Source: Candidatus Marithrix sp. Canyon 246 (lineage in GTDB: Bacteria > Pseudomonadota > Gammaproteobacteria > Beggiatoales > Beggiatoaceae). Taken from it: a stretch of 64,000 nucleotides of DNA. The number at the start of each line of letters is the position of its first letter. Positions within the stretch are counted from its first letter, which is position 1. A model generated the notes under the pieces. That model did no database searches, was not told the origin of the DNA, and saw only the letters and a program-made list of their open reading frames with translations. This document shows, in pieces, positions 59,231 to 60,938 of the stretch. The position numbers were made by a program, and so were the translations under genes. The stretch is from contig NZ_MCBX01000003.1 in assembly GCF_001723685.1 (NCBI RefSeq), forward strand, positions 1 through 64,000. The letters run 5' to 3'.

Positions 59231-59256
59231 TGCAAGGGGGGAATTCCCCCCTTGCA
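59231..59256. terminator. Perfect palindrome hairpin downstream of the caspase-FGE gene
   Basis: A 26-bp perfect palindrome (TGCAAGGGGGG / CCCCCCTTGCA around AATT) 38 bases after the stop of the caspase-FGE gene. On the minus strand it is followed by nine or more T, so it is a strong rho-independent terminator. GC-rich hairpins just 3' of the variable region are also known features of DGR target sites, so a double role is possible. Confidence 0.85.
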
Positions 59257-59294
59257 TCCCCCCTTTAAAGGCAAAATGGTAAAAGTGATAAAGT

Positions 59295-60938
59295 TTAAAG
59301 GGTTACGAGCCTGGAGACCCGGAAGCCCACGATGTTGTTGCGGTTCGTCGGCTTGCTCCTGCCGCGGACAGCCGAGCGCACGCTCCTCGCGCTGCTGATC
59401 CACGAGCCGCCGCGAAGGGACAAACGGCTTCCAGTTATAACACATTGTTTTTCTTTGCCTTTATATTTATTTTCAAATTCAGAACACGTCCACTCCCATA
59501 CATTCCCTGAAGTATCATATAAACCAAATTTATTATCTTTATAATTTCCCACTGGAGAAGTTTTACCAGGATATCCGCCATAATTTGCTTTACTTTTATC
59601 AATCTCATTACCCCACCAATGCTTAGTTTCCGTACCAGCTCTAGCTGCATATTCCCATTCAGCCTCAGTAGGAAGACGATAATTTTTACCTGTTTGATTA
59701 CTAAGCCATTTTGTATAAGCTGTAGCATCATTCCAACTCACACATGTCACTGGATGATTGTTATTTTGAGAAAAATTAGGATTACGCCAATTTACACCTT
59801 TTACATGCTTCCAACCATCTTTATATGCATAACAACTACCTTTTTTGTCTGCATCAGTTCGATAAGCAGTTGCATTAACAAATTTGCTAAATTGACCTTT
59901 TGTCACCTCATACATCCCCATAGCAAACTTCCCAACCGAAACCCGATGCACTGGTTTTTCATCATAATTACCACCACCTTGAATATCACCCATTCTAAAA
60001 GAACCAGCCGGGATTTTAACCATTTTTGGACCCAAACCGCCATCTCTTAAACGATCTTGAAAGACTTTTTTACTGCTGGCAGGAATAGGTTTTGGTTTTG
60101 GTTGAGGAACAACATTTGCTACTTGACAACCACCAAAACAAAATGGAGTTCGCAACGAAGCATTATACCAAGGTTCTTGCTTGCCCCTACTTTCCTGCAA
60201 CACCGCACTGCTTACCTGCATAAACATATCATCTATACGTTGATGAGTTTTATTGGCGGAACTTAACGCTGAAATCAGATGTGAAGTAAATAAACCATTA
60301 CGTCCATTTCGACTGACATCAGCAGCAATATCTCCATCCGCCGTCGCAAAAGCAATAATTGAACCTCGATTTTGCATTTGCTTTAATCCACGACTGGAAT
60401 TTTTACCAATGCTACGATAAGGTTTATCACGACACGCATCTAATACAATAATATTCATATCAGTTTTCGCATTGTTCATAGTTTGCAAAACTTTACTAGC
60501 TGGCACTGCTTCATATTGCAAATCGTCTGCTGTTCTTATAGATTCATTATCTATAGGCAGCAGATAATTTTCACCATCACCACGCGCCCCATGTCCAGAA
60601 TAATAAAACCAACCAATACTACTGCGGCTTGCTTTCAAACGCTGCCCAAACTCATGGATGGCATTATTCATAGCGCGGCGATCTAAATCAGTTTTCAAAA
60701 TAACCTCAAAACCGATTTGTCCTAACACCCGCGCTACATCTGTCGCATCATTAACAGTATTTGCCAATACGCCATATTTGTATTGGCGATTACCTATGAC
60801 TAACGCCAATTTTTTAGAATTTCTGGATACAACTTGCGTGTTTGCAGGCACAACATACATACCCTTACCACTTGTCGTGCTTGTTTCACAGCCACTGAGC
60901 AATAGTGCTGTAATCATAAATATAAATATTTGTTTCAT
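59295..60938 (-). CDS. Caspase-FGE lipoprotein with DGR-type variable C-terminus
   Basis: A 547 aa predicted lipoprotein (lipobox LLLSGC, Cys17). Residues 42-265 are a caspase-like peptidase C14 domain: YYSGHGA with His116, VLDACRD with Cys169. A short Pro-rich linker (275-290) leads to an FGE-sulfatase/C-type-lectin-like domain (about 303-545): [59 protein letters not shown]. The last 45 codons are extremely GC-rich (58 of 80 bases in 59341-59420) in an AT-rich gene, and the positions usually encoded AAC (Asn) are ATC, AGC, GTC or GGC. This is the pattern of a diversity-generating retroelement variable region. The caspase may act on binding of a variable ligand (inference). Confidence 0.88.
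   Translation of the reverse strand: [547 protein letters not shown]
59303..59437 (-). other. Predicted DGR variable region (VR)
   Basis: Codons 501-545 of the caspase-FGE gene. Residues I514, S515, S516, S519, V524, G526, S528 and I536 are all NNC codons. Restoring adenines in the first two positions gives AAC, the usual Asn of DGR template repeats. N532, N534 and N535 remain AAC. Non-AAC codons nearby (CGC, GGC, TCG, TGG, GTG, CGG) look conserved. No reverse transcriptase, accessory gene or matching template repeat is visible in the window. Confidence 0.75.

Follow-up and report, generated by a model that had tools for sequence, protein, structure and literature searches.

A gene for a caspase-family protein in Candidatus Marithrix sp. 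Canyon 246 ends in DNA that is far richer in GC than the remainder of the gene, which raises the question of whether this end is rewritten by a diversity-generating retroelement (DGR) located elsewhere in the genome. The window, that is, the whole stretch of 64,000 nucleotides analysed, represents contig C34 of a 3.24 Mb assembly (44 contigs, 98% complete, contamination 3.8%). The gene lies on the minus strand at 59295-60938 and encodes a protein of 547 aa which, as judged from Pfam and a lipobox regular expression, is exported, probably lipid-anchored, and composed of a C14 caspase and a C-terminal FGE domain (C-type-lectin fold). The caspase (Peptidase_C14) domain comprises residues 41-265 (60144-60818, minus strand; Pfam 133 bits; PDB matches to MALT1) and contains SGHG and DACR motifs, which we take to be the catalytic His and Cys sites. 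The FGE-sulfatase domain follows at residues 303-540 (59319-60032, minus strand; Pfam 221 bits), with PDB matches to PvdO, FGE and Treponema denticola variable protein 1 (2y3c, E 3.2e-13). Both folds are clear from the Pfam and PDB matches, and the N-terminus carries a lipobox-like LSGC (regular expression).

The initial annotation, made from the window alone, had proposed that this gene is a remote DGR target, pointing to its GC-rich 3' end and to eight codons of the form NNC (514, 515, 516, 519, 524, 526, 528 and 536). Both observations were confirmed: 58 of 80 bases at 59341-59420 are G or C, and all eight codons read NNC. It had also predicted a near-identical GC-rich repeat with AAC at these codons beside a DGR reverse transcriptase (RT). 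A DNA search of the genome with window positions 59231-59480 returned ten further places at E < 1e-9, among them C20:9436-9552. The repeat found there has AAC at all eight codons and lies ~0.8 kb from a DGR-type RT gene; it is referred to as the template repeat (TR; C20:9438-9552, plus strand, 115 bp with 28 adenines) and its counterpart in the window as VR (59311-59425, minus strand, 115 bp; 68% GC compared with 38% for the remainder of the gene). The window VR is changed at 10 of the 28 template adenines and at none of the 87 other bases, and thus all ten differences fall where the annotation had expected them. With TR and a DGR-type RT on another contig of the same genome, the assignment of the window gene as a remote DGR target is supported.

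We compared TR with seven VRs of the genome (those of the window, C20, C3, C11, C30, C43 and C17). They differ from TR at 92 of 196 adenine sites and at 7 of 609 others (Fisher p 2.5e-56; the paralogues are not fully independent, and each target on its own gives P <= 3.3e-7). Five of the seven non-adenine changes are near the repeat ends (positions 9, 110, 110, 115 and 115) and two are inside (37 and 45), and three of the seven VRs, including that of the window, show no non-adenine change at all. At the adenine sites, changes led to G (50) or T (36) and rarely to C (6). An adenine is present in 15 of the 37 whole codons of TR, and 11 of these are AAC, a codon that cannot be converted to a stop through changes at A alone. 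Four fainter VR-like places in the genome, with non-adenine differences at 18/87 (C25), 9/42 (C4), 16/71 (C22) and 2/41 (C6) bases and adenine-site differences at 9/28, 5/11, 11/27 and 7/19, respectively, were excluded from the above counts. An origin without a retroelement, through gene conversion or ordinary recombination between FGE paralogues together with positive selection on the binding site, would fit targets that are paralogues with similar 3' ends. However, conversion offers no reason to spare non-adenine bases, template adenines (24% of the repeat) account for 92 of the 99 differences, and the template is outside any FGE gene and in one locus with genes for RT, Avd and MutS-I, so that this alternative is highly improbable and already refuted unless the TR locus is an artefact.

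The locus on C20 has the components of a DGR. The RT gene (C20:7753-8649, minus strand) is a 298-aa frame with an RVT_1 match of 75 bits and the motif IGNLTSQ, and is adjoined by avd (C20:8636-8950, minus strand), which matches bAvd with 44.8 bits (cut-off 40) and NCBIfam DivGenRetAVD with 77.6, slightly below the cut-off of 80. A MutS_I gene (C20:9058-9396, plus strand; 49 bits) precedes TR, and a target gene with an FGE domain and a VR is located at C20:9960-11237 (minus strand). TR and the MutS_I gene are thus opposite in strand to avd and RT. According to the excerpts of the literature used here and below, DGR cassettes with an inverted RT are known (PMC6642488), and HRDC and MSL (PF01624) are published DGR accessory proteins (PMC10053308). 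At C20, accessory proteins are represented by bAvd and MutS_I. Behind TR, on the plus strand, is a conserved stretch that also follows five other TRs; among the aligned RTs of the family, those that go with these five TRs are the closest. The closest named relative of the C20 RT is from Candidatus Parabeggiatoa.

No RT gene is present in the window, as the initial annotation had stated, and the C20 RT is the only one of DGR type found in the assembly. It has IGNLTSQ where five long group II frames have PQGG..SP, and it aligns with RTs that adjoin TRs in relatives. These five frames are the only other long RVT_1 matches in the genome; the remaining ones are fragments without the PQGG..SP motif (L007, L008) and a ninth match (C44:99519) that was left unclassified.

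All seven targets have an FGE-sulfatase domain with VR at the 3' end of the gene. Six of them, including that of the window, are on contigs other than C20 and match TR at its non-adenine bases. By eye and regular expression, a lipobox was found in four targets (window, C30, C43 and the upstream piece of C11) and a Sec-like signal in three (C3, C17 and C20). Pfam detected a caspase domain in two (window and C30), and in the C11 target a region resembling a caspase (35% identity, E 1.7e-25) shows two frame shifts before the FGE frame. Despite these frame shifts, the FGE part of the C11 target (L042, 4640-6178) retains a near-clean VR (2/87 non-adenine differences). C25 encodes a further caspase-FGE lipoprotein, whose VR-like end, with the 18 non-adenine differences given above, is not followed by the 3' element described below. 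On the DGR contig itself, a caspase-like frame is followed by an FGE domain (L039, 19382 onward; C20:20178-20762), with neither a VR match nor this element.

We consider it very probable that, as a whole, the following explanation holds: the window VR would be diversified by the C20 DGR, whose TR RNA, with its conserved 3' stretch, would be copied by the RT together with Avd. The RT would err opposite template adenines, and the cDNA would replace VR in the window gene and in six or more further FGE genes dispersed over the genome, a ~38-bp tag 3' of VR being the proposed signal that would let the element reach targets at a distance. The product would be exported and probably lipid-anchored, and would combine a caspase domain with a hypervariable binding site of lectin type; at the envelope, this site would bind varying ligands of foreign or neighbour origin, and ligand binding would control the caspase protease. 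The presence of a lectin-like site and a caspase in a single exported protein suggests that it is an envelope receptor-protease. The lipobox, the caspase domain and the hypervariable site are in keeping with the initial annotation's idea of an envelope sensor whose caspase answers to binding. Defence, kin recognition and neighbour recognition may be roles of such a protein. If exported caspase proteins of a gammaproteobacterium have a binding site that can be rewritten, the supposed sensor and protease would be one molecule outside the cytoplasm.

A perfect palindrome of 26 bp (59231-59256; 13-nt arms 59231-59243 and 59244-59256, no spacer) is located 38 bases past the stop codon, exactly as annotated, and had been likened to the hairpins that flank VRs of other DGRs. 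This part of the claim did not stand. Perfect inverted repeats within 115 bp were found at 5 of 7 VR ends compared with 40 of 111 control gene ends with arms >= 8, and at 2 of 7 compared with 18 of 111 with arms >= 13, the controls being own-genome DNA in which overlapping loci and the targets themselves are still included. Hairpins are therefore not clearly enriched, and we dropped the palindrome as specific evidence for a DGR target structure. It is terminator-like, with a run of T following it on the coding (minus) strand. In Bordetella phage BPP-1, an element just 3' of VR and beyond the TR-VR homology is needed for homing, namely a GC-rich hairpin with a stem of 7-10 bp and a 4-nt GRNA loop, 4-34 bp from VR (PMC3240598); the window palindrome is loopless and begins 54 bp past VR.

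The position directly 3' of VR is occupied by a different feature, the tag (59273-59310, minus strand), a mostly noncoding target element of ~38 bp that holds the stop codon. It resembles the BPP-1 element in its position outside the TR-VR homology and differs from it in being AT-rich and linear. Among the seven targets, the tag is on average 83% identical, compared with 62-69% for upstream coding DNA and 37% for the next 38 bp, and it does not stand behind TR. Since the stop codon is at two different places within it, the tag is conserved as DNA or RNA and not as protein. The genome has 24 FGE matches, of which we examined 18 ends (six fragments, including the broken tagged gene on C6, were omitted): the tag was present at 7 of 7 FGE ends with a clean VR and at 0 of 11 others. 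Six of the clean-VR ends match exactly and C43 has 3 mismatches through its deletion, while the best match at the other 11 ends has at least 5.

We scanned 57 genomes with the pattern TAACCCTTTNNNNTTTATCNNTTTTAC, allowing up to 2 mismatches, and obtained 44 places, compared with 3 for the reversed pattern. The six places in the own genome are all targets; the scan missed C43 (1-nt deletion) and C6 (one extra base in the tag). At 0-1 mismatch there were 28 places in three genera (own genome, G000, 6; G001, 2; G032, 6; G017, 10; G031, 4), and all 28 are at FGE gene ends, G031 C229 having been assigned through its VR. An FGE match was found upstream of 8 of the 16 places with 2 mismatches, one of which (G030) ends ~340 bp short; a fourth genus, g2, accounts for four places. 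In eight set comparisons between genera, the tag was 70-84% identical, compared with 53-62% for 240 bp of upstream coding DNA and 25-58% for the next 38 bp, and within one genus (G017 versus G031) the values were 91% for the tag and 63% for coding DNA. These sets exclude L194 (G031 row, misaligned) and the gapped L141 (G001). A degenerate tag-like end was seen by eye in the Candidatus Parabeggiatoa record L071. Neither base pairing nor likeness of the tag to the TR leader or to the stretch 3' of TR exceeded that of shuffled sequences.

The tag is a candidate target-site signal that may let the DGR act on genes at a distance. A role in homing is our leading guess because of the 3' hairpin of BPP-1 (PMC3240598) and the cis-acting features suggested for cyanobacteria (PMC7517822). 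Alternatively, the tag could be a shared 3' regulatory element or a leftover of common descent, which is a serious possibility although we would not call it probable. The tag contains the stop codon and occupies a position typical of transcript-end signals, CTTTTACCCTTTT-like tracts of a looser kind are found behind several other FGE genes, and in one case (G032 C98) a tagged FGE gene lacks a TR-like VR. Moreover, the own tags are no better conserved towards G001, of the same genus, than coding DNA is (73% and 71%), and the tag was absent from the nine RT-adjacent targets of other family DGRs that were examined. However, the excess over both flanks between genera indicates that the tag is held by more than descent, and the shifting place of the stop codon and the absence of the tag behind 11 other FGE genes of the genome also argue against this alternative. 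We tentatively propose, with slightly less than even confidence, that the tag serves mutagenic retrohoming as a site recognized by its sequence: acquired behind a template-like repeat, it would turn a gene into a remote target and, in this family, would feed a repertoire of exported receptors, caspase-lectin proteins included, that outlasts repeated loss of RT. No publication listed in our literature searches mentions such a sequence tag in its title or abstract opening. On how a DGR finds distant targets, the cyanobacterial study goes no further than to suggest that 3' cis features may matter (PMC7517822). The tag is a concrete candidate that can be scanned for; it corresponds one-to-one with VR status among the 18 FGE gene ends and recurs in other genera.

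The RT gene is incomplete in this assembly. Its frame begins right after two stops, and the start and ~35 N-terminal codons are missing. An alignment with two G024 copies, G011 and G006 indicated that ~150 bp are missing where avd meets RT, among them the end of the former and the start of the latter. We therefore speak of targets of a DGR and not of an intact DGR, and the element may recently have fallen silent. The RT of G024 C60 has the same second gap, of ~19 residues ahead of motif 4, and since the VR of that element is clean (0/95 non-adenine differences), this gap is tolerated.

The sequences thus point to recent activity of the DGR, while current activity is uncertain. That the element is dead here, the seven targets being a frozen repertoire, appears to us about evenly balanced. 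The deletion at the junction argues for it, as do 10 of 15 aligned relatives, whose RT frames carry ~33-38 more N-terminal residues. Precedents in relatives point in the same direction. In the sister genome G001, VR-like targets with tags are present, but a close DGR RT (its two RVT_1 matches are in frames of 631 and 613 aa), a TR-like pattern and a 3' template-RNA stretch were not found, and G034 (59% complete) retains a short avd (minus strand), the 3' stretch and MutS_I (both plus strand) with a 21-aa RT remnant and no TR beside the stretch. On the other hand, the deletion could be an assembly fault, the N-terminal block is also lacking in the other five aligned frames, though these are contig-edge, shortened, broken or from Spirochaetales, and the RT frame is otherwise open, with IGNLTSQ and YVDD intact. 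Any loss of RT must have been very recent, since three of seven VRs, the window's included, are free of non-adenine changes.

We investigated the same components in the relatives. Their family carries 25 genus labels, and 25 GTDB genera are given for Beggiatoaceae (PMC11172852), which makes this the likely family. TR-like matches at E <= 0.001 occurred in 17 of 57 genomes and RT matches at E <= 1e-30 in 14 of 57, the own genome included in both counts. When relatives' TRs were compared with sampled DNA of their own genomes, 9 of 12 had a cognate VR, that is, one with few non-adenine differences (11 pairs in eight genomes; 12-18 adenine-site and 0-6 non-adenine differences, compared with at least 16 non-adenine differences in non-cognate comparisons). 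For the other three (G024 C147, G011 C40 and G017 C3) no cognate VR was detected in the sampled DNA. Four cognate targets are single caspase-FGE frames (one in G011, two in G016, one in G032), three of them with export signals by eye. Most commonly in these loci, avd, RT and TR follow one another on a single strand and are often preceded by the target; TR is reversed in the loci of G032 and G020.

Tagged VRs in other genomes, apart from those of G001, are likewise low in non-adenine diversity. Diversity at non-adenine versus adenine sites was 0.037 versus 0.395 in G017 (9 of 11 tagged places), 0.067 versus 0.440 in G032 (5 of 7), 0.041 versus 0.357 in G031 (3 of 4) and 0.146 versus 0.452 in G001 (three VRs), the non-adenine value of G001 being higher than the 0.018-0.067 of the other sets. 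We searched for cognate TRs of the tagged VRs in G001, G017, G031, G032 and G002 and obtained none: the TR-like pattern was absent from G001, G031 and G002 and found only other kinds of places in G017 and G032, and the RNA model of the 3' template stretch had no match in any of the five. G017 (87% complete) has nine dispersed tagged VRs with low non-adenine diversity (L152-L159, L193) and no cognate TR in its assembly; its element may be on unassembled or unbinned DNA. In G026 (L253, C182), the conserved template-RNA stretch follows a fragment of an FGE gene and appears to be what is left of a rearranged DGR. RT has been lost or has decayed with targets retained in several genomes of the family, and a history in which targets are diversified and then frozen is therefore open to study.

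The system is a DGR with remote targets. Such DGRs are known from Treponema, cyanobacteria and Thiohalocapsa; the present one has exported caspase-lectin proteins among its targets and a 3' element that is specific to target genes. In T. denticola, one TR and RT serve up to seven target genes, some of them remote; all targets of nine DGR-bearing isolates are predicted FGE-sulfatase proteins, many with lipoprotein signals, Asn codons are rewritten, and 8 of 17 isolates have targets without TR or RT (PMC4891356). The present system resembles TvpA and its remote targets in one TR/RT, seven FGE-sulfatase targets, lipoprotein signals and rewritten Asn codons, and targets without TR or RT are also seen in G001. 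In contrast, the accessory protein of T. denticola is HRDC whereas Avd and MutS-I are found here, and the excerpted description names neither a caspase domain nor a shared 3' element, both of which are present here (PMC4891356).

Cyanobacterial DGRs have orthocaspase- and kinase-C-type-lectin variable proteins and many remote targets, which their authors suggest may be activated by cis-acting 3' features (PMC7517822). They share with the C20 system the combination of a caspase-family domain with a C-terminal hypervariable C-type-lectin domain and the many remote targets. Unlike them, the proteins described here have an export signal and belong to a gammaproteobacterium, and a candidate cis feature is named. 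In Thiohalocapsa PB-PSB1, some targets are best explained by diversification in trans, one target has caspase-like (CHAT) and TIR domains, and RTs broken in the reference have intact variants in the population (PMC10907252). These conflict-system DGRs are alike in their in-trans targets, a caspase-like domain and an RT broken in the assembly; many of their loci contain MoxR/vWA ternary systems, whereas single exported proteins are found here. The caspase-FGE domain pair itself has long been known: 33 prokaryotic metacaspase sequences carry FGE-sulfatase, with an N-terminal helix, maybe a signal peptide, in some architectures, in passages that are silent on DGR variation (PMC3501461). A large metagenome survey of DGRs states that its own method would miss remote targets (PMC8144416).

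The surroundings of the window gene include remnants of other genes. A DUF4384 gene (60950-61423, minus strand, 157 aa) is 11 bp upstream on the same strand and possibly co-transcribed. Its sequence corresponds to the 3' portion of a C1-peptidase-DUF4384 gene, of which an intact paralogue exists at C20:17588-18964. The gene is broken in the window (60950-61707), its other pieces at ~61405-61707; the pieces match the paralogue in different frames, and an open frame remains in the DUF4384 part alone. Part of the P-type ATPase gene at 55544-57886 is duplicated at 61920-62110. Downstream of the target gene, 57928-58524 on the minus strand encodes a protein of 198 aa whose RiboL-PSP-HEPN match (16.3 bits) stays below the cut-off of 28.4.
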